DNA of 64,000 nucleotides, from contig JAUYQZ010000046.1 in the NCBI GenBank assembly GCA_030695415.1, positions 62,001-126,000 of the forward strand. Direction: 5' to 3'. The stretch is from Hylemonella sp. Lineage in GTDB: Bacteria > Pseudomonadota > Gammaproteobacteria > Burkholderiales > Burkholderiaceae_C. A model generated the notes under the pieces. That model was not told the DNA's origin and made no database searches. It was given only the letters and a program-made list of their open reading frames with translations. Positions within the stretch are counted from its first letter, which is position 1; every line of letters starts with the position of its first letter. Shown here in pieces: positions 15,065-32,616 of this stretch. The translations under genes were made by a program, and so were the position numbers.

Positions 15065-15120
15065 GGCCAGCACGCCTGAGGTGTGCGGCGTTGCCGGACA
15101 GTCTCAGGGTCCCCTTTGCC

Positions 15121-15930
15121 ATGTACACCGACTCTCATTGCCATCTGAGCTTTCCGGAACTCCGGGAGGATCTGCCGCGCATACGGCAAGCCATGTCCGC
15201 CGCGCAGGTGTCGCGGGCCCTGTGCATCTGCACCACCCTGGAGGAATTCGAAGAGGTTCATGGCCTGGCCCTGCAGTACGACAACTTCTGGGCCACCGTC
15301 GGCGTGCATCCGGACAACGAGGGGGTGACCGAGCCCACCTTGGACGATCTGCTCTCACGCGGCCGTCTGCCCCGAGTCATCGGGATCGGCGAGACCGGGC
15401 TGGACTACTACCGCCTGGGCGAGCGCAGCGTGGCTGACATGGAATGGCAGCGCCAGCGTTTTCGCATCCATATCCGCGCCGCGCGCGAGCTGAACAAGCC
15501 CCTGGTCATCCACACGCGCAGCGCTTCCGACGACACCCTGCGCATCCTGCGGGAGGAGGGTGAGGATGGCTCTGCGGGATCGGCCGGCGGCGTCTTTCAC
15601 TGCTTCACGGAAACCGCCGAAGTCGCCCGGGCAGCCCTGGACCTCGGCTTCTACATTTCCTTTTCCGGCATCCTGACCTTCAAGAACGCAGGAGATCTGC
15701 GTGATGTCGCGGGTTTCGTCCCCATGGACCGCCTGCTCATCGAGACCGACAGCCCCTACTTGGCACCGGTACCGTATCGGGGCAAGACCAACAATCCCTC
15801 GTACGTGCCCCACGTTGCGCAGCAGATTGCACAACTGCGGGCGCTCCCGGTACAGACCGTGGCCGAGCTCACCAGCCGCAATTTCGAGCACCTGTTTTCC
15901 GGCTGCGTGAGTCACGCTGCACAGAGCTGA
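15121..15930 (+). CDS. TatD family metal-dependent deoxyribonuclease
   Basis: 269 residues. The opening MYTDSHCHL holds the first metal-binding HxH, and later motifs are GETGLDYYR, LVIHTRSA, GVFHCFTE and ETDSPYLAPVPYRGK, the full TatD metal ligand set. TatD proteins are Mg-dependent nucleases acting in DNA quality control or 3'-end trimming. ATG at 15121 was chosen because the protein family begins with this His-containing strand; an in-frame upstream ATG adds ten non-conserved residues. It is last in the mltG-tmk-holB-pilZ-tatD run. Confidence 0.93.
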   Translation: MYTDSHCHLSFPELREDLPRIRQAMSAAQVSRALCICTTLEEFEEVHGLALQYDNFWATVGVHPDNEGVTEPTLDDLLSRGRLPRVIGIGETGLDYYRLGERSVADMEWQRQRFRIHIRAARELNKPLVIHTRSASDDTLRILREEGEDGSAGSAGGVFHCFTETAEVARAALDLGFYISFSGILTFKNAGDLRDVAGFVPMDRLLIETDSPYLAPVPYRGKTNNPSYVPHVAQQIAQLRALPVQTVAELTSRNFEHLFSGCVSHAAQS

Positions 15931-16169
15931 GCGCTCTGGGCAGGCGCCTCAAGGGGTCGTTTCCGACCGTCGGCAGTCGACTTGTAACGGCGTCCCGCCT
16001 CTGCTTACAACATCTGTTTCATAGCTGGTCCAAATGTAAAAGACTGTAGTGTTTCTTTGCCAGCCCATTTCAAAGGCGCAACATTTTTCCATGTTGTTGC
16101 ATTGATGGGCCAGCGGCAACAGAAAAGCAAGGCTCATCACGTCGAAGCCCTCAACTCAAGGAGTTGGCT
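15931..16169 (+). promoter_or_regulatory. Leader region of the chemosensory operon
   Basis: This 239-base gap is clearly less GC-rich than the coding regions around it. It contains TTGTAA and TTACAA separated by 17 bases (within 15980-16010), which can be read as weak -35/-10 elements or as a six-base inverted repeat. A second weak inverted repeat, GCAACA...TGTTGC, lies near 16077-16099. AAGGAG at 16158-16163 serves the GTG start at 16170. I see no clear sigma-54 or sigma-28 promoter. Confidence 0.35.
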
Positions 16170-17033
16170 GTGAAAAGTGAAATGCCCGCCGGGGATACCG
16201 AGCGAACCTACCCGCGCCCCGCCCGCCCCGTGACCGAGAGCAAGGCGCCGGACCGTAAGCAGATCGACGCGGATCGGACGCTCAAACTGCTGGTGCGCGG
16301 GCTCGAGCGTGACGAGCGCCAGCTGCTCGACGGCCTGGTCCGGGTGTCCTTGCGGCGTTCGCCGCGGCTGGAAATCCTCGAGGAGGAAGACGCCGTCCGG
16401 GCCGATGTGGTCCTGATCGGCGCCACCGACGGCGCGGCCGTGAGCTGGGCCAGGAAGCAGCCCTGGATTGAAGACAAGGCTGTGATCTGGATCGGAGGCG
16501 GCGGACACATCCCACAAGGCCACACGGTCATCCGCCGCCCTGTGCAGTGGTCCATCCTCCCCATCCTGCTGGCGCGTGCGCTTGAAAACGGACCGAACGC
16601 GCCATCGGTCTCACAACACGGCACGCTGGACAAGCTGCACGCTCCACTTCGTGCACGCGCATCCGACCACCCCATCCTGGTGGTCGACGACAGCCTGGCC
16701 GTACGTAACCATCTGCGCGCCTTGCTGGAGTCGGGCGGCTTTGCCGTGAGCGAGGCTGACAGCGTGGCATCCGCCTTGAAGATCCTCTCGCACGAACAGG
16801 TCGACTGCGTGCTGATGGACGTCCTGATGCCCGGCCTCGACGGTTACGAAGGCTGCCGCCAGATCAAGTCCCTGCTGCGTGGCAGCAGTGCCGTTCCAGT
16901 GGTGATGCTGACCAGCAAATCCTCTCCCTTCGACCGAATTCGCGGAAAGATGGCTGGCTGCGACGCCTATCTGACCAAGCCGATCGACCCCCAGCAGCTC
17001 GGCGATGTACTTGCCGTGCACCTGCAAAGCTGA
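16170..17033 (+). CDS. PilG-like response regulator with N-terminal pseudo-receiver
   Basis: 287 residues. The C-terminal half (about 165-287) is a canonical CheY-like receiver: ILVVDDS, phospho-acceptor Asp in CVLMDVLMPGLDG, then MLTSKSS and LTKPID. The N-terminal half (about 30-135) has the rhythm of a receiver (KLLVRGLERDERQ, DVVLIGATDG) but lacks the acidic triad and the phosphorylatable Asp, so it is probably a pseudo-receiver. GTG at 16170 was chosen because AAGGAG lies six bases upstream; the earlier TTG is too close to that site. First gene of the chemosensory operon, 27 bases before the next regulator. It resembles PilG in position but is about twice its length. Confidence 0.82.
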   Translation: MKSEMPAGDTERTYPRPARPVTESKAPDRKQIDADRTLKLLVRGLERDERQLLDGLVRVSLRRSPRLEILEEEDAVRADVVLIGATDGAAVSWARKQPWIEDKAVIWIGGGGHIPQGHTVIRRPVQWSILPILLARALENGPNAPSVSQHGTLDKLHAPLRARASDHPILVVDDSLAVRNHLRALLESGGFAVSEADSVASALKILSHEQVDCVLMDVLMPGLDGYEGCRQIKSLLRGSSAVPVVMLTSKSSPFDRIRGKMAGCDAYLTKPIDPQQLGDVLAVHLQS

Positions 17034-17060
17034 ATCTGGCACCCCCAAGGAGCAAGCGCC

Positions 17061-17423
17061 ATGAACGGTCACATACTCATCGTTGAAGACAACCCGGTTG
17101 ATCGACTGCGCCTGGAGAAACTGCTCGGCGAGGCTGGCTACAGCTTCGCGACTGCGGTCAACGGCACGCAGGCACTGGTCGAAGTCAGGCGCAGCCGGCC
17201 CGATGCCATCCTGATGGACGTCAATATGCCGGAGATGGACGGCTTTGCCGCGACCCGTGCTCTGCAGGCTGATGCACAGACCCGGGGCATACCCGTGATC
17301 CTGGTCACCGCAAAGAACCAGAAGGCTGACAAGGCCTGGGGACAGATGCTGGGCGCCCGCGGGCATATCACCAAGCCGTTCAGTGACGAGCAACTACTGT
17401 TACAGGTCCACGCACTGCATTGA
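17061..17423 (+). CDS. PilH-like single-domain response regulator (first copy)
   Basis: 120 residues, receiver domain only: ILIVEDNPVDR, phospho-acceptor in AILMDVNMPEMDG, conserved Lys in ITKPF. The segment KNQKADKAWGQMLGARG resembles the PilH signature (K.Q..D..WG...GA), which separates PilH from PilG in twitching chemosensory systems. AAGGAG is present upstream of ATG. It has no output domain, so it would act by protein contact at the pilus motor or as a phosphate sink, as PilH does. A closely similar second copy follows at 17476. Confidence 0.87.
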   Translation: MNGHILIVEDNPVDRLRLEKLLGEAGYSFATAVNGTQALVEVRRSRPDAILMDVNMPEMDGFAATRALQADAQTRGIPVILVTAKNQKADKAWGQMLGARGHITKPFSDEQLLLQVHALH

Positions 17424-17475
17424 CTTGTCCGCAAAGCGATCCACATTGGCAACCGTAAAAAGGGGAGAACACACC

Positions 17476-17829
17476 ATGGGAAGAAAAGTACTCATCGTCG
17501 ATGACGTCCAGGCCGATCGCAGCAATCTGGAGCGCATAGTCTCCGACGCGGGGCACCAGCCCCTGCTGGCCGAGAACGGCGCGATGGCGGTGGAGCGCGC
17601 CCGGCGCGACAAACCCGACCTCATTCTGATGGACGTCAACATGCCTGATGTGGACGGCTTCGCCGCGACGCGCATGCTCAAGGCAGACGAGGCGACCAAG
17701 GGCATCCCGGTCGTGTTCGTCACGAGCAAGAACCAGAAGGCCGACATGGCCTGGGGACAGATGCTGGGCGCCAGAGGCTTCATCACCAAGCCCTACAGCC
17801 GCGAGCAGATCCTGGCACAGCTCGCTTGA
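17476..17829 (+). CDS. PilH-like single-domain response regulator (second copy)
   Basis: 117 residues, receiver only: VLIVDDVQADR, phospho-acceptor in LILMDVNMPDVDG, and ITKPY. The stretch KNQKADMAWGQMLGARG is nearly identical to that of the preceding gene, pointing to tandem duplication, while the rest has diverged. GGGGAG lies about ten bases before ATG at 17476. Directly upstream of the first CheW-like gene. It may divide phosphoryl-flow roles with its paralogue; which one contacts the pilus machinery cannot be told. Confidence 0.88.
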   Translation: MGRKVLIVDDVQADRSNLERIVSDAGHQPLLAENGAMAVERARRDKPDLILMDVNMPDVDGFAATRMLKADEATKGIPVVFVTSKNQKADMAWGQMLGARGFITKPYSREQILAQLA

Positions 17830-17841
17830 GCGGCAAGACCC

Positions 17842-18456
17842 ATGCAGGACGCCATGAACGACACCGCTGCCCCCACCGAACGGCCCCTGCTGCCGCCCAG
17901 CGTGGCGCTGAAGCAGGGGTTCCAGTTTCAGGGAGTGAACGCAGGGGGCACCCCGCTCGCGGCGGCGTATGCAACAGCTTCCTCAAGCGCTGGTGGGGTG
18001 GCCGGTAACAACGAGATCGAGCAGCGCGAGGGCTTTTTCATCGGCCACCTGGGCTTGATGATTCGTTACGAAGACGGCAGCGAACTGTCCGACCTGCCCG
18101 CCATCTATCAGTTGCCCAATGCCCCCGACTGGTTTGCCGGCGTGGCCAACCTGCATGGCCTCCTGGTACCGGTCTTCGATCTGGCGAGCTATCTAGGCAC
18201 CGAACACCCGGCGGGTGTCAAACCGATGTTGCTGGTCCTCGGGCATGGAAACGATGCGGCGGGGGTGGTGATCGATGGCCTGCCCCTGCGCCTGCGCGTC
18301 AAGCTGGCTGATCGCGCAGACGGGGCCCCGGTACCGGCCCCTCTGGAGGGTTGCGTATCCCAGACCTACTGGGCTGCAGATCGCACCTGGATGGACCTGC
18401 AGGCACCGGCCCTGCTGAACAAGTTGAGTGAGGAACTGGCGGCCATCGGTTCATGA
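17842..18456 (+). CDS. PilI-like CheW domain adaptor protein
   Basis: 204 residues. A CheW-like fold is indicated by LMIRYEDGSELSDLPAIYQLPNAPDWFAGVANLHGLLVPVFDLASYLG, which matches the adaptor pattern of a hydrophobic strand, conserved GVANLHG and LVPVFDL. CheW adaptors couple receptors to CheA kinase. A 50-residue Ala/Ser/Gly-rich N-terminal extension precedes the domain. ATG at 17842 is used; an ATG four codons later is possible. It sits between PilH-like and PilJ-like genes, as pilI does in the Pseudomonas pil-chp operon. Confidence 0.82.
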   Translation: MQDAMNDTAAPTERPLLPPSVALKQGFQFQGVNAGGTPLAAAYATASSSAGGVAGNNEIEQREGFFIGHLGLMIRYEDGSELSDLPAIYQLPNAPDWFAGVANLHGLLVPVFDLASYLGTEHPAGVKPMLLVLGHGNDAAGVVIDGLPLRLRVKLADRADGAPVPAPLEGCVSQTYWAADRTWMDLQAPALLNKLSEELAAIGS

Positions 18457-18504
18457 CCGGGCCTTGACCGCCTTTTTAATGGTTGAAACGACTGGAGTGC
18501 AGTG

Positions 18505-20298
18505 ATGAAACTGAATCTGACAATCCGAACCAAGGTGCTGGCCGGTTTCGGCCTGCTGCTGGTCCTGTCCGCTGTGTTTGCGGTGGTGGCTACCTGGCAG
18601 GTGAACGCCCTGCAACGGCTGCATAACCTTGCCGAAGCCAAGTTTTCCATCATCGCCCAGGCAGAGAACACCATATGGGAACTGCGTTCCGGCTTCCCGC
18701 TTTACTTTGCAAGCCTGGATCCCAAGCGGCGCCAGAGCATCAAGGACAAGAACCCTGATCACATCCGGGACGTTCGCCAGCAGCTGCAGGCTTACTCGGA
18801 ACTGCCGAACCTGACGCCGGAGGAGTCGCAGAAGCTGAAGGAAACGCAGGTCATCCTCGAGAGGTATGTCTCCAAGCAACCCTTGCTGTTCACCTTGTTT
18901 GAAGAAGGCAAGGTGGATGAGGCCCAGGAGATACGAACCAATTGGACGGTCCCGGGGGCCATTGGAACGGTCAAGGGCATCACAGATCTGCGCAAGCTGG
19001 CGCAGGAGAACAACGAAACGAGCATTGCCCAGACCCATACGACGGCCAACCGCCTGATGGCACTGACCGGCATGCTGTTGGCGATCCTCGGCGTCGGCAT
19101 CGCCCTGTACGTGTACCGTGGCATCAGTCGTCCGCTGAAGGATCTGCAGGATACGGTGGAGCGCGTGCGCGCCGGCGAAGTGCTGATGGAAGCCGAGGGT
19201 GTCAAATCGCAGGACGAGCTCGGAGTCATCTGGCACACCGTGCACGGACTGCTGGTCGAGCGCCGCGACGCCCAACGCAAGGCCGAAGCTGAGAATGAAC
19301 GCCTGAACCAGTCGGTGATTTCCATTCTGGAATCGGTGCACCAGCTGGCGCAGAAGGATCTGACCGTGCGAGCGCCAGTGACCGCCGACGTGATTGGCAC
19401 CGTCTCGGACTCCATCAATGCCTTGACGGACGAGACCTCCCGGGTGCTGCAAGGCGTGAGCCAGATTGCCGGCAGCGTGGCACTGGCCTCGGATAAAGTG
19501 CGCAGCCAGGCCGAAATGGTGTCCAGGACGGCCGAAGACGAGCGTAGCAGTGTGGGCAGGATGATCGAGTCACTGACCCATGCCACGCAGACGATGAACC
19601 AGGTCGCTGCCCTGGCAGAGCAGTCGAACAACTCGGCGAACAAGGCGACGGCCGTGACCGAAACGGCTCTGGAGGCGGTGAACGGGACCGTGAAGGGCAT
19701 GGAGTCGATCCGCGAGACGATTGCCGAATCGGAGAAGCGGATCAAGCGCCTGGGCGAGCGGTCGCAGGAGATCTCCGGCATCGTGAACCTGATCAACACC
19801 ATCTCGGAGCGCACCCACGTGCTGGCCCTGAATGCATCGATGCAGGCCGCAGTGGCGGGTGAGGCAGGGCGCGGCTTCGCGGTGGTGGCGGAAGAGGTGC
19901 AGCGGCTGGCCGAAAGCTCCAGGACGGCCACCCAGCAGATCAGCACGCTGGTCAACAACATCCAGCTCGAAACCAATGAGACCATCGGCACGGTGAATCG
20001 CACCATCAGCCAGGTGGTGCAGGGCTCCGAGCAGGCGCAGAAGGCCGGGGAGCAGATGCGCATGACGCAGAAGATCACGGCCGAGCTCGTGGCGCAGGTG
20101 AAGCGGATCGCCGAGGTATCCGAGGAGCAGCGTGAGATGTCGGCCGGCCTGCTGGCATCGGTGCAATACATCGGGAAAAGCACGGAACGCACAGCGGATC
20201 AGATTTCGGCCCAGAACCGGGAAACCGAATCTCTGCTGCAGTCGGCCCGCCGTCTGGTGGAGTCGGTCAACGTGTTCAAGCTTCCGAAGTTGGCCTGA
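18505..20298 (+). CDS. PilJ-like methyl-accepting chemotaxis receptor
   Basis: 597 residues. TM1 (about 11-31), a periplasmic helical region, TM2 (about 184-204), HAMP and a signalling domain. The hairpin tip (about 430-470) reads [20 protein letters not shown]: the Q in place of the usual E of chemoreceptors (LNAAIEAA) and the SMQAAVAG pattern resemble PilJ. It lacks a C-terminal CheR-tethering pentapeptide, and no CheR or CheB gene lies nearby, so adaptation by methylation is uncertain. ATG at 18505 has GGAG seven bases upstream. The ligand is unknown; the periplasmic part does not show a PAS or Cache pattern that I recognise. Confidence 0.9.
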
Positions 20299-20337
20299 CG
20301 CTGAGCCCGCCATTCCATCTCAGAGAAGGCTACCCCC

Positions 20338-23205
20338 GTGAAGCTCAACGACCTGATCGATGCGCTGGCCGCCGAGATCGAACTCGCCCGGCCGCAACTC
20401 GACCGCGATCTGGATGAACTGGCGTCCCTGGATGTCGCTGACCATGCATTCCTGGTCGCGCTCGACGACTACAGCAGCCTGGCGCAGCGCATGGGAGAGG
20501 CCGGCGAGATGGCCGGTTTCCCCGGGCTGCAGGCGGTTTGCAACCATGTGCTTGAAAACACGCTGGCCCTGCCGGCCCTGGCAGCCGATGAGCGGGAACG
20601 CCTGTTCAAATTCCTGCGCGAGTGGCCGCCGCTGATCATCTATTACCTGCGCAATATTTCCGATCCGACCACCGCAGCGGGCCTGGTCGACCATCTGGTG
20701 CATGCGCCGTATCCCATGGACGAAGAGCAGGCACTCAAGACCATGCACATGCTGGGCGCCATGCCGCAGCAGATTCAGCAGCCGGGCAGTGGCGACCAGC
20801 CGGCACGGGCCGTGCTGGCCACACCGGAAGACGTGGCGCTGCAGATTCCAGCCGACACGGATGCCAAGCTGCTGGAGGGCTTCTTTCATGAGGCGCCCGA
20901 CCAGGCCCGTTACCTGGTGGACCTCTCCCGCAAGATGGCGCAAGGTCAGGGCGACGGCTCCGACCTCGTCGCGGCGCGGCGCATGGCGCACACGCTCAAG
21001 GGCTCCGGCGCGATCATCGGCCTGCGTGGACTGGCCTCACTAGGGCATCATTTCGAGGACATCCTCGATCATTTCGAGGGTCAGGGCGGGGTGGTCGCCA
21101 GGCCGGCCGCGGACACCCTCCTGGATGCTGCCTACTGTCTGGAACAGATGGTCGGATTTGTCACCGGCACGGACGACTACCCCGTGCAGGCGCAGGATAC
21201 ATTGCAGCGGGTGCTGGACCTGGCCAACCGGATTGACCGCGGCGAGCTGATCGACCAACCCCTGGTGCGCGCAACTTCGGTGTCCCTGGTAAGTACGCCA
21301 ACGCCGCCACAGGTCCCCGGTCGTGGTAACGCGACCGAGCTCACTTCCGCAGTTACGCCTCAGCATGCGGGCCACCTGCCGACGGAGCGCAACGCCGCGG
21401 CACTGCGGGTCAGCGTCAAGCAGGTTGATGAGCTATTCCGCGTTTCGGGGGAGGTGTCGGTCAACAGTGCCGTTCTGGAGGCGCGCCTCAAGCACCTCAT
21501 CGATCACGCGCGGGAGCTGCTGAGCCAGAACCTGCGGGTGCAGAAGCGCCTGTTCGAACTCGAAACCCTGGTCGACGTGCGCGCGCTCACCATGATGCGG
21601 GCGCGTACCAAACGCTCCGACGAAGCGGCATTCGATCCCCTGGAAATGGACCAGTACAGTGAGCTGCACAGCACCACCCACGCGTTGATGGAGGAATCAG
21701 CCGATGCCCGCACCTTGGCCTTCCGGCTGGAAGAGGAGATTTCCCGGTTGAGCGGTGTGCAGACCCTGCAGCAGCGCCTGTCAAAGGACCTGCAACATCT
21801 GGTCATTGGCACGCGAATGAACCAAGCCGGAGTGCTGGAGCCTCGCCTGCAGCGCAATGTGCGCGCAACCTGCCAGGCCACGGGCAAGCAGGCGGAGTTG
21901 ATTGTCAAGGGCGGCGAGGCCTTGATCGACGGCGACATGCTCAGCCGCCTGGCCGAGCCGCTGCTGCACCTGTTGCGCAATGCCGTCGACCATGGATTGG
22001 AGTCACCTGAGGAACGACTGGCCGCCGGCAAGGCGCCCACGGGACGCATCGAACTTGCCTATTCGCGACAAGGTCAGCAGGTCGTCCTTCAGTGCGGCGA
22101 CGATGGTCGTGGGCTGGACCTGCCGGCAATCCGCCGGCGTGGCATCGAGCGGGGACTCATCCAGCCGGACCACGTGCTGACAGACGATGAGCTGGCCCGT
22201 CTGATCCTGCTGCCCGGTTTTTCCACGCGCGATACCGTGAGCGAGGTGTCGGGCCGTGGCGTGGGTCTGGACGTGGTGCGGGACTGGATTCATTCCATGA
22301 ACGGCAGCATCAGCATCAGGTCAAAGGCAGGGCAGGGCTGCAGTTTCGAACTGCGCTTTGCCGCTTCGCTGTCGACCATGCAGTCGCTGGTGGTGGAAAC
22401 CAGTGGACAACGCTTTGCTCTGCCTTCACTGCACATCGAACAGGCGGTTCCGCGCGGGGTCGGAACACTCGATCGCATCGGCGACAAGCTGGTCTACCAC
22501 CACGGCAAGCGGGTTCTGGGTGGCAGATTGCTCTCGGAGCTGGCCGGCTTACCCGTGCAAACCGACAAGCCACTCAATGACTACGACATCGTGATCGTGC
22601 GGGTGGACAACAAGGTGCATGTGCTGGGGGTCGACCGGCTGATCGACTCGCGTGACCTGCTCGTGAAGAATCCGGGCCGTTTTGCACGCCATGTCCGGGG
22701 TGTCGCCGGCCTCTCGATCCTCGGTGACGGCAGCGTCGCCGTGAATTTGGACCTGAGCCAGTTGCTTGCCCGGGAGGGTGGCACGCGTCAGGTCAAGAGC
22801 CTGCGGGCAGCGAGCGCGACCGCCGGGGAGCAGCAGGGTACCCCGGGCGTTCTGATCGTCGACGACGCCTTGTCGGTCCGGACGTCCTTGATGCAACTGG
22901 TCCAGGATGCTGGGTTCCGGGTGAAATCTGCCAGAGACGGCATCGATGCCATCGACACGCTGGGATCCTTCAACGCCGACATCGTGCTGACCGACCTTGA
23001 GATGCCGAACATGAACGGCATCGAACTCACCACCCATATCCGCAGCCGCGACGACCTCAAGGCCATGCCGGTGATCATGATCACTTCACGCTCCCAGGAC
23101 AAACATCGCCGGCTGGCCGAACAGGCTGGCGTCAGCAACTACATCACCAAGCCCTATAACGAGGGCGAACTCCTGCAGAAGATCCGTCAGGCGCTGGCCG
23201 CCTGA
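20338..23205 (+). CDS. Hybrid CheA/ChpA-type sensor histidine kinase with receiver domain
   Basis: 955 residues. An N-terminal helical region (about 1-160) precedes an Hpt domain with phosphorylatable His218 (MAHTLKGSGAI). Dimerisation helices, an ATP-binding domain with N-box LLRNAVDHG (near 547), DDGRGLD and SGRGVGLDVV, a CheW-like regulatory domain and a receiver from about 837 (VLIVDD, TDLEMPNMNG, ITKPYN) follow. It is the kinase of the system, phosphorylating the upstream regulators. Compared with Pseudomonas ChpA (about 2,500 residues, eight Xpt domains) it is much smaller, with one recognisable Hpt. GTG starts at 20338. It is followed directly by two CheW-like genes. Confidence 0.93.
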   Translation: MKLNDLIDALAAEIELARPQLDRDLDELASLDVADHAFLVALDDYSSLAQRMGEAGEMAGFPGLQAVCNHVLENTLALPALAADERERLFKFLREWPPLIIYYLRNISDPTTAAGLVDHLVHAPYPMDEEQALKTMHMLGAMPQQIQQPGSGDQPARAVLATPEDVALQIPADTDAKLLEGFFHEAPDQARYLVDLSRKMAQGQGDGSDLVAARRMAHTLKGSGAIIGLRGLASLGHHFEDILDHFEGQGGVVARPAADTLLDAAYCLEQMVGFVTGTDDYPVQAQDTLQRVLDLANRIDRGELIDQPLVRATSVSLVSTPTPPQVPGRGNATELTSAVTPQHAGHLPTERNAAALRVSVKQVDELFRVSGEVSVNSAVLEARLKHLIDHARELLSQNLRVQKRLFELETLVDVRALTMMRARTKRSDEAAFDPLEMDQYSELHSTTHALMEESADARTLAFRLEEEISRLSGVQTLQQRLSKDLQHLVIGTRMNQAGVLEPRLQRNVRATCQATGKQAELIVKGGEALIDGDMLSRLAEPLLHLLRNAVDHGLESPEERLAAGKAPTGRIELAYSRQGQQVVLQCGDDGRGLDLPAIRRRGIERGLIQPDHVLTDDELARLILLPGFSTRDTVSEVSGRGVGLDVVRDWIHSMNGSISIRSKAGQGCSFELRFAASLSTMQSLVVETSGQRFALPSLHIEQAVPRGVGTLDRIGDKLVYHHGKRVLGGRLLSELAGLPVQTDKPLNDYDIVIVRVDNKVHVLGVDRLIDSRDLLVKNPGRFARHVRGVAGLSILGDGSVAVNLDLSQLLAREGGTRQVKSLRAASATAGEQQGTPGVLIVDDALSVRTSLMQLVQDAGFRVKSARDGIDAIDTLGSFNADIVLTDLEMPNMNGIELTTHIRSRDDLKAMPVIMITSRSQDKHRRLAEQAGVSNYITKPYNEGELLQKIRQALAA

Positions 23206-23206
23206 G

Positions 23207-23698
23207 ATGCGAATCGGAACCAGCGCCATGGAAACAATGAATCGCAGCGCCCGCGCCACGGCCATGCAGGTTCGTGGCGACTTTGTGCTGCTGCGCGCGG
23301 GCTCCCTGCATCTGCTGCTGCCGCAACATGACGTGAATGCCACGGAGTATATGGAACACGCTCCCGATCCCATTGGCATTCCCGGTATTTTCAGTCTTGG
23401 AGAAGCCGATGGTGAGGCGCACCTGGTGGCGGCCCTGTCGGAAAACATGCACATGCTGCCCGAGATTCCCGCTGACCGCTTTCTGCTCACCCGGCTCTGC
23501 GGCGAACGCCGGCATTTCTCGTTGGCCTGGAGCGAAGTGCGGGTGCTGATCGATACGGCACTGGAGCTGCACCCCCTGCCGGCCATCCTGCAAGGGAAAG
23601 CCCGCCTGATTGACGCGTATGTCGAACTGGACGGCGAACTGGCGTTCTGCACGACCGCGCAGCGCGTTCTGGCCCAAGTGCATGCAAGGCCGGAGTAA
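23207..23698 (+). CDS. Degenerate CheW-like protein in chemosensory operon
   Basis: 163 residues starting two bases after the kinase stop. The pattern FVLLRAGSLHLLLPQHDVNATEYME resembles the first strands of CheW domains, but the remainder lacks the G-x-x-N-x-R-G adaptor motif. It may be a diverged CheW-like or an unrelated partner protein. No transmembrane segment or signal peptide is seen. Position inside the operon (23205 to 23702 without gaps) makes a function in the same array likely. An in-frame ATG at 23228 is an alternative start. Confidence 0.55.
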   Translation: MRIGTSAMETMNRSARATAMQVRGDFVLLRAGSLHLLLPQHDVNATEYMEHAPDPIGIPGIFSLGEADGEAHLVAALSENMHMLPEIPADRFLLTRLCGERRHFSLAWSEVRVLIDTALELHPLPAILQGKARLIDAYVELDGELAFCTTAQRVLAQVHARPE

Positions 23699-23701
23699 AC
23701 A

Positions 23702-24220
23702 ATGGACATGCAACTGCCTGCGCTTGTCGAAGATCCGTCATCGGGTGAAATCGGTGAAGAGACCCCGGCACCCCGCGCGCTAGCCTGCCTGCTGGAATAC
23801 GCGAGGGGCACCTGTGTGGCCCTGCCGGTACATGCCGGCGTCGAACTTGTGGAGCAGCCCAGGGTCGTCGCGGTCCCCGGCATGCCGCACTTTGCCCGCG
23901 GTTTGATAGCCTGGCAGGGCCGGCAACTGCCTCTGATTGACCTGGGGCGGCATCTGGAGGAGGGCGGATCCCCCGCGCCGGTACCGTTCAGTCATGTGCT
24001 GGTGGTGGCCTTTCAGACGGCTCCTGGCCAAGCGCTGGACTACGGCGCCCTGTGCGCGCCCTTTCTGGTTCGGATGATCGAAGTCACCGACAGCCAGCAA
24101 TGCCCGCTGCCCGTCGGCAGTGAACGCTGGGCACGCATGGCCGCGTCCTGCTTCCGGTACCAGGGGCAGCCCGTGCCCGTACTGGAGACAGCCAGAGTCT
24201 TTGGCCCCTCGGTCGCCTAG
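23702..24220 (+). CDS. CheW-like (ChpC-type) adaptor protein
   Basis: 172 residues. ALPVHAGVELVEQPRVVAVPGMPHFARGLIAWQGRQLPLIDLGRHL fits the CheW adaptor domain, with the Gly-rich hydrophobic core and an RGLIAWQG replacing the GVANLRG region. A second adaptor of this type (ChpC) ends the Pseudomonas pil-chp operon and links the kinase to additional inputs. It starts four bases after the previous gene and ends 38 bases before comA, on the same strand. Confidence 0.8.
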   Translation: MDMQLPALVEDPSSGEIGEETPAPRALACLLEYARGTCVALPVHAGVELVEQPRVVAVPGMPHFARGLIAWQGRQLPLIDLGRHLEEGGSPAPVPFSHVLVVAFQTAPGQALDYGALCAPFLVRMIEVTDSQQCPLPVGSERWARMAASCFRYQGQPVPVLETARVFGPSVA

Positions 24221-24245
24221 AAGGCGGGATCCCAATTGTGCTCAT

Positions 24246-24253
24246 AAAGGAGG
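24246..24253 (+). promoter_or_regulatory. Strong ribosome-binding site for comA
   Basis: AAAGGAGG lies five bases before ATG at 24259 and eight before the second ATG at 24262. It is the closest match to the Shine-Dalgarno consensus I noticed in the chemosensory-comAB run and decides against the GTG upstream at 24238. Confidence 0.85.
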
Positions 24254-24258
24254 TTGCA

Positions 24259-25170
24259 ATGATGGCTCAGAACTTTCTCGATACGCCGAAACGAAGCGAC
24301 AAGCCGAGAGACTTCGGATTGACCTGCCTGATCGACAACGGCGTACCCACACGCCACTTCAGGGATGTGGTCCAGAGTAACGCGCATCTGATCGATGTGG
24401 TCAAGTTCGGGTGGTGCACGGCGCTGGTCACTGTGGACCTGGAGCAGAAGATCCAATGCCTGGTCGAGAACGACGTGAAGTTCTATTTCGGCGGAACGCT
24501 ATTCGAAAAAGCCCTGGCCCAGAAGAAGCTGGACGCGTTCTACCGCTTTCTCAAGCGATACGACTGCCAGATCGTCGAAGTATCCAACGGTACCCTGCCC
24601 ATCGACGTGACGGAAAAGGGCAGGCACATTGCCGACTTTGCCAAGGAGTTCTATGTCCTGAGCGAGGTCGGCAAGAAGGACATCGACGAAGCCGACGATA
24701 TGCCCATATCCCAGTGGTTGGCCGAGATCCATGCCGACTTGGCCGCTGGTGCCAAGCGGGTGATTCTGGAGGCCCGTGAGTCGGGACAAAGCGGGATCTG
24801 CAATGCCAATGGTCAGCTGCGAAAAGACTTGGTGGAAAGCATCTCCAACTCGCAGTTCCGTTCTACCGATGCCATCTGGGAGGCCCCTACCAAGTCCTTG
24901 CAGACTGCTCTCATCGCCAGCCTGGGGCCCAACGTCAACCTGGGCAATATTGCCTTTAGCGATGTGATCGGTCTGGAAACCTTGCGCCTGGGTATACGCT
25001 CGGACACCTTCACCCTCTATGACGGCCCCGATGGACATTTTGTGGAGCCCAAGTCCTCCCACATGGTCAAGGGGTCTGCTGGCGACCGTCGCCGCACCTT
25101 CGACGGATTTGCCCGAAATCAACTTCCCGAGAGCAAGGCCCTGATGCCCGGCATGATGATGCTCAAGTAG
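24259..25170 (+). CDS. comA: Phosphosulfolactate synthase, ComA/YitD family
   Basis: 303 residues. ComA adds sulfite to phosphoenolpyruvate to give (2R)-phospho-3-sulfolactate, the first step of coenzyme M synthesis in methanogens; the Bacillus subtilis homologue YitD serves sulfolactate formation in spores. All family blocks are present: VKFGW (48-52), GGTLFE (78-83), SEVGKK (135-140), EARESG (171-176), WEAPTKSLQ (207-215), GPNVNLGNIAF (223-233) and LETLRLGIRSDTF (239-251). The last 50 residues are extra. Start chosen by the strong ribosome-binding site. It lies 38 bases after a chemosensory adaptor gene and 58 bases before comB. Plant HSA32 belongs to the same family, so a non-sulfolactate role cannot be excluded. 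Confidence 0.9.
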   Translation: MMAQNFLDTPKRSDKPRDFGLTCLIDNGVPTRHFRDVVQSNAHLIDVVKFGWCTALVTVDLEQKIQCLVENDVKFYFGGTLFEKALAQKKLDAFYRFLKRYDCQIVEVSNGTLPIDVTEKGRHIADFAKEFYVLSEVGKKDIDEADDMPISQWLAEIHADLAAGAKRVILEARESGQSGICNANGQLRKDLVESISNSQFRSTDAIWEAPTKSLQTALIASLGPNVNLGNIAFSDVIGLETLRLGIRSDTFTLYDGPDGHFVEPKSSHMVKGSAGDRRRTFDGFARNQLPESKALMPGMMMLK

Positions 25171-25228
25171 CGTGCCTGCCATACGCGACATCTCCAGTGG
25201 GGCCTTGTCGGGGCCTTCAAGGGACCCT

Positions 25229-25942
25229 ATGCCCGGCGCAGAGGTCAGGGTCATCCAGGGCGTCGACCAAGGCTTGCCCCCGTCCGACATCAACATCGTC
25301 ATTGATGTCATTCGGGCCTTTACCGTGGCCCACCTCGCCTTTGTCCGCGGTACCCGCGAGATTCTGCTGGTGAATTCGGTAGAAGAGGCCATGGCGCTGA
25401 AGGCGCAGCAGCCGGGCTATCTTCTGGCCGGAGAGATCCGGGGCTTGCCGATTCCCGGATTTGATCTGGACAACTCACCTTATCGGGTTTCTCTGGCTGA
25501 GCTGCAGGGGCGCACGCTGGTGCAGAAAACGACCCATGGGGTCACAGCCACGCTGGCCGCACTGGACGCACGGTACGTCCTGGTCACCGGGTTCTCCAAT
25601 GCCTCCAGCACGGCCCGTTTCGCCCGTGGTCTGGTTGAAGGGACGGGGTTTCGGCGGATCAATGTCATTGCATCCCACGGCCAGGACGATGACGACCTTG
25701 CTTGCGCTGAACTGATCCGGGACCGGATTCTCAACATCGGAGCCGTGGACCCAGACAGCGTCATTGAACGCATCCGCGCGTCCAGACCTGCAGCCAAATT
25801 CCTCACTGGACAACCCAATGGTTTCGAGCCGCGGGATCTGGATTTTTGTGTTCGCGCCTATGATTCCGATTTTGTGATGCAGGTGGATTCCGGCTCGGCG
25901 CCACCCAGAATCGGGTGGGGCCGATTCGTCGATCATAGCTGA
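25229..25942 (+). CDS. comB: 2-phosphosulfolactate phosphatase, ComB/YitC family
   Basis: 237 residues. ComB hydrolyses phosphosulfolactate to sulfolactate. The family motifs are intact: INIVIDVIRAFT (21-32, usually DVLRATT), AGEIRGLPIPGFDLDNSP (67-84, usually GER.G....GFD.GNSP) and LVQKTTHGVTAT (97-108). ATG at 25229 (AAGGGA just upstream) is preferred over GTG at 25172 because homologues begin close to the first beta strand; the earlier start would add 19 residues and place the gene one base after comA. Directly downstream of comA, so the pair forms a two-step sulfolactate module in the chemosensory operon. Confidence 0.85.
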   Translation: MPGAEVRVIQGVDQGLPPSDINIVIDVIRAFTVAHLAFVRGTREILLVNSVEEAMALKAQQPGYLLAGEIRGLPIPGFDLDNSPYRVSLAELQGRTLVQKTTHGVTATLAALDARYVLVTGFSNASSTARFARGLVEGTGFRRINVIASHGQDDDDLACAELIRDRILNIGAVDPDSVIERIRASRPAAKFLTGQPNGFEPRDLDFCVRAYDSDFVMQVDSGSAPPRIGWGRFVDHS

Positions 25943-26108: not shown

Positions 26109-27023
26109 CTAGCTGACCTCGAAGTTCAGCGTTGGCGCACTGGCGTCGCTGAACGCTGCCCCCAGGGCAATCTGCCCGCGACCATGCAGCACACACTCCT
26201 CGCGGCGCAGCAGCAGCTCTGACCGGGTGCCGACAAAACGGATCCAGGTGCCGTAGCTACTCATGTCGATCAGCATGATGCGCCCGTGGCGCCACTCCAG
26301 CCGCGCATGAGTGCGCGATACGCGTGGATCCACGACGACGAACTCACAGTGGCGAATGCGGCCTATGTGCACAGGCAACTCGAAGGCGCGGTAGACGCGC
26401 ATCTCATCCCCCCACGACAGGTGGACCTCCTGCCCAAGTGCGTCGGCCGTGGCCGCCTTGCTCATGGGATCAACCTCACCCTGCATGGTGATGAAGTCCG
26501 TGGACTGGTCCTCGTGCCACTCGACCTGGTACACGTTGCACGGTTCGACCCGGCCGCGCACGCTGATCGGCCCCAAGGGGCGGTACCGAATGCCGTTGGC
26601 ACGGCTGGAGTAGTCCAGGTCAAGGCTTTCGACCCAGATTTCGTGGGGGCCGGCGAGGTCAGACAGGCGGGATGCGATATTGACGGCATCGCCGTAGCAG
26701 TCCCCGTTGACGATTTCCACCTCACCGGTGGCGATGCCGACACGGATCGGCAGATGCTCTGCCAGCGGCTGCTGGAGCAGGTTCATCTGGTGCTGGCGCT
26801 GCAGATCCACCACAGCATGGATCGCCGAGGTGGCGTCATCGAACACGGTGAGAACCCCATCACCCAGGGTCTTGATGACTTGACCACCCCGCGCCTGCAG
26901 CACCTCGCAAATCCAGCGGGTCAGTTGCGTGACGGCGCGGGTTGCCCTGATATTACCTAGTGACTCGAATACGGAGGTACTGCCGGCCAGATCAGTAAAA
27001 ACGACGGTGGTGTTGACACCCAT
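26109..27023 (-). CDS. Class III nucleotide cyclase with C-terminal FHA domain
   Basis: 304 residues from ATG at 27023 (a TTG two codons upstream is possible). The cyclase domain (about 1-170) has metal-binding Asp11 (VVFTDLAGST), Lys51 and Asp55 in IKTLGDG, and the transition-state motif DAVNIASRL, so it looks catalytically complete and would make a cyclic nucleotide, probably cAMP. Residues about 205-300 form an FHA domain with HIGR, VSRTHARL and SSYGTW (usually NGT), a phosphothreonine-binding module. No transmembrane segment is evident. Convergent with comB and divergent from the orphan gene at 27171. The kinase that would phosphorylate its partner is not in the window. Confidence 0.88.
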   Translation of the reverse strand: MGVNTTVVFTDLAGSTSVFESLGNIRATRAVTQLTRWICEVLQARGGQVIKTLGDGVLTVFDDATSAIHAVVDLQRQHQMNLLQQPLAEHLPIRVGIATGEVEIVNGDCYGDAVNIASRLSDLAGPHEIWVESLDLDYSSRANGIRYRPLGPISVRGRVEPCNVYQVEWHEDQSTDFITMQGEVDPMSKAATADALGQEVHLSWGDEMRVYRAFELPVHIGRIRHCEFVVVDPRVSRTHARLEWRHGRIMLIDMSSYGTWIRFVGTRSELLLRREECVLHGRGQIALGAAFSDASAPTLNFEVS

Positions 27024-27170
27024 GCGCAAGCTTGATTGATATTTTCTGTCGACAGTTTAGGGCATCGCCGAACGCTTGAATACCGCGTCTCTGTCCGAAT
27101 TTCGAACGGCTGGACAAGCATACAGTCCTGAGGTGTTGCTCGATGTATCTTGGGTAAAGTATTGATTTAC
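27024..27170. promoter_or_regulatory. Divergent promoter region of the cyclase and orphan genes
   Basis: About 147 bases between two divergent starts. It holds the perfect ten-base palindrome CTGTCGACAG (27046-27055) and an imperfect inverted repeat TGTCC...GGACA around 27090-27115. Either could be an operator. Neither gene has a good Shine-Dalgarno sequence. No -35/-10 pair stands out. Confidence 0.35.
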
Positions 27171-28659: not shown

Positions 28660-30039
28660 TTATCGCGGGGCGAAATGGCGGACTGCCGCCTGCGCGATAG
28701 CCTCGCCCTGCTCCTGGACGAAATGCCCCCCCTGCTCTACGCGCACAGGCTCGGGGCAGCCGCGGATTACCTCCCGCAACTGCTGCATGACCGGCCAGCC
28801 CAGCACCGGATCCTGCAGGCCCACGGCCATCAGGCTGCGACCTTGCCACTCGGTTTGCCAGAAGTCACGAGCCTGGCGTGAGATCGCGGCACCATCGGCC
28901 TGTGCAGTCTCCGGCACCATGGGCGGGAAGGCGCGCAGAGCCGCCCGGTGGCCACGATCCGGGAAAGGTGCGTCATAGGCGGCTGCCTCCTGCTTACTCA
29001 TCGAGGGATTAGCACGCGCCAGCAGGCCTGCGACGCTGTAATCCGGCTTCTTGGCACACATCTCGCGCCAGGCCAGGAAGCCAGAGCTCAGAGGGGCATC
29101 GCCGGTGGCCAACGTTGTGTTCATGACGAGCAGGCCGTCGTAGCGTTTTGGTGCTTCCATGGGCAGGGTCAGGCCCAGCAGCCCGCCCCAGTCCTGTACC
29201 ACCAGCACGATGTTATTCAGGTTCAGGCGTTCGACGAACTCCAGCAGCACTTGACGGTGCCAGCTGAAGCTGTGGGCGGACTCCTTCTTGGGCTTGTCGC
29301 TGCGGCCAAAGCCGATCAGGTCGGGCGCCACCACCCGGTGACCAGCGGCCAGGAAGACGGGGATCATCTTGCGGTAAAGATAGCTCCAGCCCGGATTGCC
29401 GTGCAGGCACAGCCAGGTCATCGGGGCATCGCGCGGACCTTCGTCCAGGTAATGCAGACGCAAGCGGGCCAAAGCCGGCAAGTCGCTGAGGTAGTGTGGT
29501 GCCCACGGATACGCCGGCAGATCGACAAAATACGCCTCAGGTGTACGCACCGCGTCTTCGCGGACCGGCTGGCTCAGGAGACGCTGCGTCTCCCGTTTGC
29601 GCTGGAAGAAATCCTGCAAGAGCGCGCCGCACTCCTGCGCCAGCACGCCTCCCTGCACGGCCGTCTGGTGGTTCAGCTGCGACTGGGCGAACAGATTCAG
29701 TACGGATCCGGCCGCGCCGGTCTTGGGGTCTGGCGCACCGAACACCACCCGCTTGAGTCGCGCGTGCAGCAGGGCACCGGCGCACATGGGACAGGGCTCC
29801 AGCGTGACGAAGAGCTCGCAATCCTCCAGCCGGTAGTTGCCAAGCCGGGCCGCCCCATCGCGCAAGGCGCGGATCTCGGCATGTGCCGTGGGGTCGTGGC
29901 TGCCGATGGGTGCGTTGTGACCAGTCGCGATCACGACGCCCTGGTGCACCAGCACGGCCCCCACCGGTACCTCGCCGGCCTCCGCAGCCTCGCGCGCCAG
30001 CGCCAGCGCCTGCTGCATGAAGACGGCATCAGTTGCCAT
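28660..30039 (-). CDS. tadA: Fusion of tRNA adenosine(34) deaminase TadA and haloalkane dehalogenase-like hydrolase
   Basis: 459 residues. Residues 1-150 are TadA, which converts adenosine 34 to inosine in tRNA-Arg(ACG): zinc site His53-Ala-Glu55 (AHAEIRAL) and Cys83/Cys86 in PCPMC. Residues about 165-459 are an alpha/beta hydrolase of haloalkane dehalogenase type: HGNPGW, nucleophile Asp283 in VQDWGG, acid Asp410 and base His439 in GGHFVQ. The two parts are in one frame without a stop. ATG at 30039 overlaps the upstream gene by 11 bases. The hydrolase substrate is unknown, and an epoxide or other C-X bond is possible. Since tadA is usually essential, the fused form is presumably functional. 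Confidence 0.93.
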   Translation of the reverse strand: MATDAVFMQQALALAREAAEAGEVPVGAVLVHQGVVIATGHNAPIGSHDPTAHAEIRALRDGAARLGNYRLEDCELFVTLEPCPMCAGALLHARLKRVVFGAPDPKTGAAGSVLNLFAQSQLNHQTAVQGGVLAQECGALLQDFFQRKRETQRLLSQPVREDAVRTPEAYFVDLPAYPWAPHYLSDLPALARLRLHYLDEGPRDAPMTWLCLHGNPGWSYLYRKMIPVFLAAGHRVVAPDLIGFGRSDKPKKESAHSFSWHRQVLLEFVERLNLNNIVLVVQDWGGLLGLTLPMEAPKRYDGLLVMNTTLATGDAPLSSGFLAWREMCAKKPDYSVAGLLARANPSMSKQEAAAYDAPFPDRGHRAALRAFPPMVPETAQADGAAISRQARDFWQTEWQGRSLMAVGLQDPVLGWPVMQQLREVIRGCPEPVRVEQGGHFVQEQGEAIAQAAVRHFAPR

Positions 30040-30649
30040 GCAGATCCAGGCGATCCATCCAGGCGGCAAGCGCGCGCTCGTTCTCGCTGCCTGCGGCGTA
30101 AACCGCCTTCATGGCCGCATGCGCTTCGGGGCGGTGCTGGTTCAGCTTGAGCTTGCACTGCAGCGTTGTCACACGCAGCTCGAAGGCAACGATGCCAGCA
30201 AGCATCCGGTGCGCATAGTCCTCACCCAGGCCACGCCACTGTGCTGCGTAGGCTGGCTCATGGTCACCAATCAGCTTCTTCAGCAGCGCGTCCTTGGCCG
30301 CCGCGTCCTCCACCAGCGTCGCCTGCACCGTGGCATGCACGGCGAGGTAGTTCCACGTCGGCACCCGGACGAGATCCGGGTAGACCTGGGGCGACATGTA
30401 GGCATGGGGCCCGAGGAAAGTCACCACGGCTTGCGCACGCGCCTGCAGGTAGCGCCAGTGGGGGTTCGGTTTGGCCACATGGCCCAGCAGCACGAGCCCG
30501 AGGCCCTCGTCCTGCACATGCAGCGGCAGATGTGTCACATAAGGCAGGCCCGCATCGTCCGGGCTGATCAGGCTGGCAAAAGGATGACCACGCATGAGGG
30601 CCAGGGCATGTTCGCGATCTTCCGACTTGAACTGGGGCGTAAGGTACAT
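30029..30649 (-). CDS. PaiB-like FMN-binding protein
   Basis: 206 residues. The opening MYLTPQFKSEDREHALALMRGHPFASLI and the middle segment AYMSPQVYPDLVRVPTWNYLAVHA match the PaiB/FMN-binding negative regulator family, which has a split-barrel flavin-binding fold. The family name comes from a Bacillus transcriptional regulator; enzymatic roles are also possible. It overlaps the TadA fusion gene by 11 bases, so the two are probably co-transcribed and coupled. No DNA-binding helix-turn-helix is evident. Confidence 0.85.
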   Translation of the reverse strand: MYLTPQFKSEDREHALALMRGHPFASLISPDDAGLPYVTHLPLHVQDEGLGLVLLGHVAKPNPHWRYLQARAQAVVTFLGPHAYMSPQVYPDLVRVPTWNYLAVHATVQATLVEDAAAKDALLKKLIGDHEPAYAAQWRGLGEDYAHRMLAGIVAFELRVTTLQCKLKLNQHRPEAHAAMKAVYAAGSENERALAAWMDRLDLHGN

Positions 30650-30777
30650 CGTGCATCAAGTTTAGCCGCTGCCTCCCTGAATTCACCGTGAGGCAAAGCA
30701 ACAGGCCGCCACAAGCCACAGAAATTCTGGTACCTTCATGGACAGAGAGACAGGTACAAGGAACGACAGGCGAAGGC

Positions 30778-32616
30778 ATGAGTGGCGCGTTGGTAGGATT
30801 CCGGGTCGACGGCAACAACAAGCTGATGCGTCTGCATGGCGAGCGCGGCTGCGAAGGCGTGCTGACCGAGGTGCTGGCTTATTTGCGCAGTGTCAGCCAT
30901 GCCCGCTTGCACGCCTACGCAAGCACCTTGAAGCCGGTGGCCACGACCGATGGCCCCTACGCCGAGGAGACAGCCCAAGCTGTGATGCAGGCCTTTTGCG
31001 AAGCCCATCTGGGCGAGAGCTGCTGCCTGCAGACCTGGGCCGAGGCCTTCGCGGCTTTTCCTGAACTTGAGGCCTGGCATGCGGGCTTCCCCTTCATTCC
31101 CGCCGCCCGGCTGGACAACTGCGGCGACGTGACCTGGGGCATCCTGCTGGATCTGGACGCCAGCGCCTTGCAGATTTTCGTCAACCGCAACGCGCGCTTC
31201 CAATGGCGCGAGATGGCGTCGTCGCAGCCGGCTTACTGCACCCTGCCGCTGGCCGATGCACGCGAACTGACGGCGCAGGACCTCAGTGCCTTGCACGGCG
31301 TCTTGCACCAGCACTCCTATTCCGACGGCATGGATCCTGTCTTGCCGCTGCGCGACGCGCAATCGGCCCCCTTCCCCGGTCCTGGCGACTGGCTGGCGCA
31401 GTTACGACTCCAGGGCGGGCGCGTGCGGCTGCTGCTGCAACGCGGATCGCTGCGGGCCAAAGTGCGTCAGGTCGGCGAATTCAAGCTGGACGATCCCCAC
31501 TGCGGGGCTTTGCTGCGCGAGGCGCTCGACCCGCAGGTACTGGCGCTGGCGCAGGCCATTTACGGGCCCGGCGCCAGCCTGGGACAGGTCGCCCACGTGG
31601 CAGCGCAAGCGCCGCAACTTCCCTTCGCCCCCGGCGACAGCGGCCTGCCGCTGCTGGTGCTGGGCCTGAGTCCAGCGTCCGGCTTGAGCCTGGCACCGGG
31701 ACCAGCCTTCTTCGACGCTGTGCGCATGCGTCTTCTGGCCGCGGGCATGAGCCCGCAGGGCTGGCGCTTCCTGATCAAGCAGGACAACGCGGTATTGCGC
31801 TTTTTGCTGCAGTTCTTTCCGCCATCGGCGCGCATCCTGGGCAGCTTTTCGCATTTCATCAATCTGCTGGCCAGCGCCTTGCAGAACGAGGCCCTGCGCA
31901 TCGAGCGCTGCCAGCCCGCGCTGCGCGGCGTCGAGCGCATTCTCGACCGCACGCGCGGGCGTCCGGGCTCGCTGCGCGAGGAAAACGCGCGCATTTTCCT
32001 GCGCGCCATCATGCGCGCGCAATTGTCTTCCGACGAGGAGGCCAACCTGGCCCACGAGGCGCAGGATGTGTCTGACTTCGTCTACGCCCACGCCGAGGTG
32101 CTCAAGGGCGTCACCTGGCGCTCCCTGTGCCGTCGCTCGGATGACTGGCACCGGGCCCTGTTGATCACCGTCGATCCCGACAAGGATGTACGCTGGCCCG
32201 CGCTCTTGCCGGTCTATGCCACCGGCCCTTATGTTGCCGTGGAACTCGACTCCGGCTTCCTGCTGGCCGAGGAGGGCCTGGAGCAGCGCCACTGCATCGG
32301 CACCTATGCCAACGCCTGCGCCAGCGGCGCGACCCGGGTTTTTTCCCTGCGCCACAAGGGCAGGCGCATCGCGACCATCGAACTGCAGCGTGGCCATGAT
32401 GACGCCTGGCGCCTGGTCCAGATCCGTGGCAAGGCCAATACGGTGGTGCAGGACCCTGCGCTGCTGGAAGCGGCTGGCCAGTTGGCTCTGGCCTATTCGG
32501 AGGCGGCGCGCTCGCGCGAGCGTGCGGAGTTCGCCAAGGCGCGCGCGTATGGGCATTCGAGCGGATCTCTGTCGCCAGCGCTCGCCGCTCCCATGCAGGA
32601 GTACTGGACCGGCTAG
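30778..32616 (+). CDS. PcfJ-like domain protein
   Basis: 612 residues from ATG at 30778. The C-terminal part (about 490-570) contains the PcfJ signature LAEEGLEQRHCIGTYANACASG followed by VFSLRHKGRRIATIELQ. PcfJ proteins were first seen on Enterococcus conjugative plasmid pCF10, and their biochemical role is not established. The N-terminal 450 residues have no domain I recognise, are rich in Leu and Ala and contain no membrane segment or signal peptide. It stands alone, divergent from the PaiB-like gene and convergent with guaA; no conjugation genes are nearby. Confidence 0.8.
   Translation: MSGALVGFRVDGNNKLMRLHGERGCEGVLTEVLAYLRSVSHARLHAYASTLKPVATTDGPYAEETAQAVMQAFCEAHLGESCCLQTWAEAFAAFPELEAWHAGFPFIPAARLDNCGDVTWGILLDLDASALQIFVNRNARFQWREMASSQPAYCTLPLADARELTAQDLSALHGVLHQHSYSDGMDPVLPLRDAQSAPFPGPGDWLAQLRLQGGRVRLLLQRGSLRAKVRQVGEFKLDDPHCGALLREALDPQVLALAQAIYGPGASLGQVAHVAAQAPQLPFAPGDSGLPLLVLGLSPASGLSLAPGPAFFDAVRMRLLAAGMSPQGWRFLIKQDNAVLRFLLQFFPPSARILGSFSHFINLLASALQNEALRIERCQPALRGVERILDRTRGRPGSLREENARIFLRAIMRAQLSSDEEANLAHEAQDVSDFVYAHAEVLKGVTWRSLCRRSDDWHRALLITVDPDKDVRWPALLPVYATGPYVAVELDSGFLLAEEGLEQRHCIGTYANACASGATRVFSLRHKGRRIATIELQRGHDDAWRLVQIRGKANTVVQDPALLEAAGQLALAYSEAARSRERAEFAKARAYGHSSGSLSPALAAPMQEYWTG

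Follow-up and report, generated by a model that had tools for sequence, protein, structure and literature searches.

comA and comB close an apparently non-canonical chemosensory operon in Hylemonella

Organization of the locus

The window, by which we mean the whole 64,000-nucleotide stretch of Hylemonella sp. DNA that was analysed, contains a run of plus-strand genes from 16164 to 25942. This 9.8-kb block comprises receivers, couplers, a receptor, CheA, comA and comB. It opens with RR1 (16164-17033), a response regulator with a C-terminal receiver domain (Pfam Response_reg, 3.9e-27) and about 170 N-terminal residues without a Pfam match; RR1 is the first gene of the block absent from the empty sites described below. 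Two single receiver-domain proteins follow, one PilG-like (17061-17423; Response_reg, 1.9e-27) and one PilH-like (17383-17829; Response_reg, 2.7e-25), and then a PilI-like, CheW-like coupling protein (17842-18456; CheW, 1.4e-11). The chemoreceptor (18502-20298) consists of a 4-helix-bundle sensor, a HAMP domain and an MCP signalling domain (Pfam 4HB_MCP_1, HAMP and MCPsignal), and the CheA-type kinase (20338-23205) has, by Pfam, one Hpt domain, an ATPase, a CheW-like domain and a C-terminal receiver. A 163-amino-acid protein without a Pfam match, which alignment finds kept beside the block CheA (23207-23698), and a ChpC-like, CheW-like adaptor (23702-24220; CheW, 1.1e-10) complete the chemosensory part. 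The last two genes are comA (24259-25170) and comB (25229-25942), so that the operon would join this pair to three receivers, two CheW-like couplers, the 163-residue protein, the receptor and CheA.

An earlier note on this DNA had placed comA on the same strand as the ChpC-like adaptor, 38 bases past it and preceded by a Shine-Dalgarno sequence. Both details are borne out: the CheW-like gene ends at 24220, and AAAGGAGG occupies 24246-24253 of the plus strand. A promoter scan found nothing in the gap between adaptor and comA, but equally nothing ahead of the first gene of the operon, and its total of one promoter-like and seven terminator-like sites is not above that of shuffled sequences. The block is flanked by tatD (15091-15930, plus strand; TatD_DNase, 1.7e-77) and by a gene for a class III cyclase-FHA protein on the minus strand (26109-27029; Guanylate_cyc and FHA). 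We considered the latter as a cyclase branch in the style of Pil-Chp and rejected it: the gene occurs without the block in seven of 14 non-carrier stretches (G795, G793, G800, G804, G534, G790 and G616; the other seven, several of them short, gave no match). Because it is found in genomes without the block, it lies outside the module. Further along, a minus-strand frame (28660-30069) joins a deaminase domain (MafB19-deam/dCMP_cyt_deam_1) to an alpha/beta hydrolase domain, and a 642-residue protein near guaA (30688-32616, plus strand) has a PcfJ-like match (Pfam, 8.8e-12).

Identity of comA and comB

The comA frame runs from the ATG at 24259 to a stop ending at 25170 and specifies 303 amino acids, the last 52 of which form a C-terminal tail beyond the family core. 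The protein matches Pfam ComA at 2.1e-78, scoring 263.6 bits against PF02679 (cut-off 25.2) and covering the full profile, 1-243 of 243. Its top phmmer match among solved structures is a phosphosulfolactate synthase, 1u83 (2.9e-79, residues 6-253), which we take to be B. subtilis YitD; 1qwg, presumably from M. jannaschii, is matched at 3.6e-41. ComA falls below the cut-off of the NCBIfam equivalog TIGR03849 (arch_ComA), with 225 of 280 bits, which weighs against assigning it this function; as the name of that model is archaeal, the miss bars the label of archaeal equivalog. Judged by profile and alignment, comA encodes a ComA-family protein, and at the family level the assignment is clear.

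The comB open frame spans 25172-25942. We prefer the ATG at 25229 as its start because the proteins of two related loci outside the genus, L033 and L034, begin at the corresponding residue. The product matches Pfam 2-ph_phosp at 3.3e-33, with 115.2 bits against PF04029 (cut-off 26.4), over positions 13-165 of the 226-position profile only, and phmmer retrieves 2z0j (1.7e-18) and 1vr0 (5.2e-13). Eight NCBIfam equivalog models are matched and the cut-offs of all are missed, the best score being 91.2 of 332 bits, a second point against the functional assignment. An AlphaFold model built from four sequences is of moderate confidence (mean pLDDT 69.6). In a fold search it gives seven matches at E <= 0.001, all of them chains of 1vr0, 2z0j and 2yyv, and the predicted fold agrees with these family structures (1vr0, E 7.9e-10; TM 0.53-0.66, rmsd 5.2-5.8). 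Sequence comparison thus makes comB the gene of a divergent ComB-family protein. The family identity that the earlier note gave to both proteins stands; its wording that they match every family block overstates the case for ComB, because the equivalog cut-offs are missed and the profile is covered only from 13 to 165 of 226. Each of the two families has a single match in the genome.

As family members, ComA and ComB are likely to be active enzymes. Together they would convert phosphoenolpyruvate and sulfite to sulfolactate and stop there. Could they have changed substrate, so that the product is something other than sulfolactate? The scores under the NCBIfam equivalog cut-offs would favour such a change, as would the motif TTHG in the window ComB, where three aligned relatives have TTNG or TSNG. 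Against it stand the alignment of ComA to 1u83 over residues 6-253, the predicted ComB fold and the continued adjacency of comA and comB, as expected if one enzyme uses the product of the other. We regard a changed substrate as improbable.

The ComA tail is 42-49% identical to that of the window in three carriers, versus 82-84% for the core, and tails are also present in L033 (42 residues) and L034 (39 residues). A role in docking ComA to the chemosensory array was rejected on these two grounds, weak conservation and the tails at L033 and L034. The AlphaFold model of ComA, built from six sequences, has pLDDT below 50 at residues 1-21 and 234-303, a range that includes conserved core, so the model is uninformative about the tail. 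The G+C content of comA is 57.0%, versus 61.7-66.5% in the four chemosensory genes measured. We make no firm claim of foreign composition, as third-position G+C (76.0%) is similar to theirs and ordinary despite the lower overall value.

By the NG86 method, with several dS values above 1 and a G789 comB stretch that is not a whole number of codons, dN/dS is 0.035-0.18 for comA (six pairs) and 0.16-0.18 for comB (three pairs). Over six pairs each, the CheW-like gene gives 0.15-0.27, and CheA and the receptor give 0.06-0.17. On these ratios the comA/comB pair is under purifying selection, comparable to that on the remaining operon genes.

Class of the chemosensory system

The earlier note had called the operon twitching-type, and this label was not supported. 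The block shares with the Pil-Chp system of P. aeruginosa its PilG-, PilH-, PilI- and ChpC-like parts, whose receiver and CheW domains follow in that order at the level of Pfam domains, and the C-terminal receiver of CheA (compared with the partial text of PMC12632253). It differs in its kinase, its receptor and its adaptation genes. ChpA has at least nine Xpt domains (PMC12632253, partial text), whereas the block CheA is a protein of 955 amino acids with one Hpt at Pfam E <= 0.001. The receptor is of the 4HB type, and among the operon proteins scanned there is neither a PilK methyltransferase nor a ChpB methylesterase, nor any other CheR/CheB-like gene. A separate open frame of 2001 amino acids elsewhere in the same genome (G000, contig C20), 30% identical to the block CheA, is presumed to be the canonical ChpA. 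Given the one-Hpt CheA, the lack of PilK and ChpB, the 4HB sensor and this separate frame, the block looks like a second, non-canonical chemosensory system.

Distribution and history of the block

How widely is this arrangement shared? comA is present in five of 26 genomes of the genus, and the gene for the CheW-like adaptor is present in the same five, being 62-66% identical in the four carriers other than ours. A full-length CheA ortholog, 82-85% identical to that of the window, occurs in exactly these four. For 20 of the 21 remaining genomes, the best CheA match among the matches listed is partial, at 30-39% identity; for the other, G798, which falls outside that listing, the best E value is 1.1e-13. 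All four (G789, G801, G796 and G803) have the genes from RR1 to comA in the same order as the window, and in each of them 10 bases separate adaptor and comA, against 38 in the window. comB lies downstream of comA in the window, G789 and G801. The contig of G803 ends within comA. In G796 the comB frame stops after 19 codons while comA is intact, a point against the reading favoured below; the broken comB is followed there by a 997-residue open frame on the opposite strand (L073:11177-14254). The earlier note had allowed that a survey might find comAB beside this operon in one strain only, an outcome that would have told against its proposal; the link recurs in other species, so that outcome did not arise.

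Where the block is missing, its site can sometimes be read. Among 14 non-carrier stretches compared (a paralog in G801 being kept apart), both flanks are visible in three, G534, G616 and G795. In G534 (L145) and G616 (L148), tatD lies directly beside the cyclase-FHA gene, with about 156 and 297 bases between them. In G795 (L140:5619-10285) the gap holds frames of 294, 393 and 805 amino acids; their translations suggest a DNA-binding protein for the shortest and PilT- and PilB-like ATPases for the two longer ones. With these apparent PilT- and PilB-like frames in place of the block, the site may be a hotspot. Four stretches show the cyclase-FHA gene without tatD (G793, G800, G804 and G790, of which G800 and G804 end shortly after), and seven show neither flank. 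Wherever the site is readable, comAB and the chemosensory genes are present or absent together, as a single block.

Chance alone would give the five-of-five overlap with a probability of 1.5e-5, a value that ignores kinship, and the carriers are kin. In a tree built from GuaA of 21 genomes (the five of the 26 without a full-length GuaA match being left out), they fall in one unresolved fork that also holds two clades of non-carriers and the non-carrier G795. At least three changes are required on this tree, of which well-supported branches force only one, and 19 of 500 shuffles were equally clustered. Because the carriers are related, a single acquisition probably lies behind all five cases; such an acquisition with later loss is probably a fair reading. 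From the joint carriers and the empty sites together, we infer that the 9.8-kb block between tatD and the cyclase-FHA gene was acquired or lost whole, probably in a single event. A separate observation comes from Curvibacter sp. AG1, where a second, partial comB-like stretch (L032:16919-17131, plus strand; 85 bases at 94% identity) lies near the cyclase-FHA gene, beyond a 766-amino-acid frame whose match to RHS is marginal, a TPR gene and an integrase-core gene. It is probably a remnant of rearrangement.

Relatives outside the genus

An alignment search with the 163-residue protein found it in four of 399 family genomes, a set that includes five block-less members of the genus and none of the other four carriers. 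The four are our own genome and G413, G489 and G586, which belong to two other genera of the family and have the same chemosensory gene order, with CheA 64-65% identical. The 20-kb stretches of these three gave no comA or comB match, and G801 itself carries a paralogous chemosensory operon without comAB; both observations count against a necessary tie between the pair and the operon. The receptors divide likewise. Those of G413, G489 and G586 are 75-77% identical to the window receptor in the signalling half and only 23-29% in the sensor half, over 33, 53 and 153 residues, whereas the sensor halves of three carriers compared are 76-77% identical over 199 residues.

ComA-family genes are found in 36 of 399 genomes of the order (32 over the cut-off) and in 11 of 399 genomes of the family, our own being included in both. 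At 29 loci of the order, identity to the window ComA is 25.7-29.4% in 25 cases, 36% in one and 70% in one, and two give no match. A profile of window-type ComA at E <= 1e-20 retrieved our genome alone from 398 genomes of the phylum. The nearest ComA proteins outside the genus are those of L033 (66%) and L034 (70%). comB adjoins comA at both loci, and the scanned subset of their neighbours contains no chemosensory gene, a further point against a general association. Searched with a window-type ComB profile, which a distant ComB could escape, 25 ComA stretches show ComB beside ComA in L032/L072, L033, L034/L051 and L071 (paired labels denote the same place), and weakly in the L045 fusion. Taken together, chemosensory relatives free of comAB and comAB pairs elsewhere without chemosensory genes make the link lineage-specific. 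The L045 case (L045:9227-10891, minus strand; family genome G548) is an in-frame ComA-ComB fusion. Six of its neighbours were scanned, of which two are methyltransferases and two match glycosyltransferases, one just under the cut-off. We did not retain it as a possible relative, its sequence being clearly unlike the window ComA.

What, then, joins comAB to the operon? We think it reasonably probable that a working, sulfolactate-making comAB ends the chemosensory operon, is expressed with the second system and is gained or lost with it as a block. Transcribed as part of the same message, the pair would make sulfolactate whenever the second, non-canonical chemosensory system is made. The strongest competing explanation is that comAB is a self-contained pair, consuming sulfite or making a solute, that is co-expressed with the operon and has no functional tie to signalling. 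The occurrence of the pair in other contexts at L033 and L034, the related operons that lack it, the broken comB of G796 with the rest kept, and the lower overall G+C of comA at similar third-position G+C are all consistent with such a passenger. It fits less well with the presence of comA in all five genus genomes that have a block CheA ortholog, with purifying selection on comA, and with a receptor input domain that is likewise special to the carrier lineage. Since one acquisition explains joint presence without a functional tie, the case against it is weak, and we give it substantial weight while doubting it on balance.

A bolder extension of the favoured reading, in which comAB works as part of the operon, is that sulfolactate is the small molecule of the system, either released and read by its own 4HB receptor or adjusted as an output. 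The receptor input domain and comAB mark off the same lineage, which fits the predicted pairing of a receptor with a self-made chemoeffector; this is a fit and not a test, and we hold the extension unlikely. If it were true, sulfolactate would be a self-made chemoeffector or an output of a chemosensory system. The titles and opening lines of abstracts consulted, with subscription papers mostly outside their range, contain no link between sulfolactate and chemotaxis. Five natural carriers, block-less relatives and an empty site offer a clean comparison.

Known sulfolactate systems and the fate of the product

Sulfolactate synthesis is known from spores, and its first step is shared with coenzyme M synthesis in methanogens and alkene users. 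In B. subtilis, yitCD belongs to the sporulation programme and sulfolactate makes up 5% of spore dry weight (PMC517825, partial text). The window resembles yitCD in having the same two families within one operon and differs in its setting, a Burkholderiales chemosensory operon without sporulation context, in having comA first and in the 52-residue tail of ComA. The earlier note had cited methanogens and Bacillus spores for this chemistry. Its list was incomplete, as a ComA-family synthase also serves coenzyme M synthesis in bacteria that metabolise alkenes and epoxides (PMC11507031, partial text). A stable seat as the closing part of a chemosensory operon, shared by several related species, would be a new setting for sulfolactate synthesis.

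Might the pathway continue beyond sulfolactate? Xanthobacter-type coenzyme M clusters share the ComA-family synthase with the window and have argininosuccinate-lyase-like and adenylosuccinate-lyase-like genes beside it, whereas the window has ComB and no lyase. Loci of the coenzyme M type, with lyases beside ComA, also exist in Burkholderiales (L047 and L050). As the earlier note observed, no coenzyme M genes adjoin the pair, the proteins encoded around ComA being the CheW-like protein, ComB and the cyclase-FHA protein. We set aside the bacterial coenzyme M route, given the lack of lyase neighbours and the inexact way in which decarboxylase-like subunits track comAB. The methanogen pathway has ComA and ComB, for which the same reactions are predicted here; unlike it, the window has no linked ComDE, and candidate decarboxylase subunits lie elsewhere and below cut-off.

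These candidates, adjacent alpha and beta subunits resembling sulfopyruvate decarboxylase (G000, contig C34; L167:8640-9834), adjoin an aldehyde dehydrogenase and have a 2-hydroxyacid dehydrogenase nearby. Such neighbours would suit a route in which sulfolactate is an intermediate: its oxidation would give sulfopyruvate, which the split enzyme would decarboxylate towards sulfoacetaldehyde or a sulfonate product. At E <= 1e-30 the beta subunit occurs in four of five comA carriers and one of 21 non-carriers. Both subunits miss their curated cut-offs (111 of 148 and 141.7 of 221.5), however, and they sit in a cluster that resembles one for tricarballylate use (TcuA, TcuB and TctC). Because the beta subunit is absent from the carrier G801 (86% complete) and present in the non-carrier G795, shared descent can explain its overlap with comA. 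We consider onward conversion by this enzyme very unlikely and retain sulfolactate as the probable end of the pathway. The surrounding genes form an operon-like run (L167:2504-13629) of TctC, TcuA, TcuB, the split decarboxylase-like enzyme, the aldehyde dehydrogenase, an MmgE/PrpD protein and the 2-hydroxyacid dehydrogenase.
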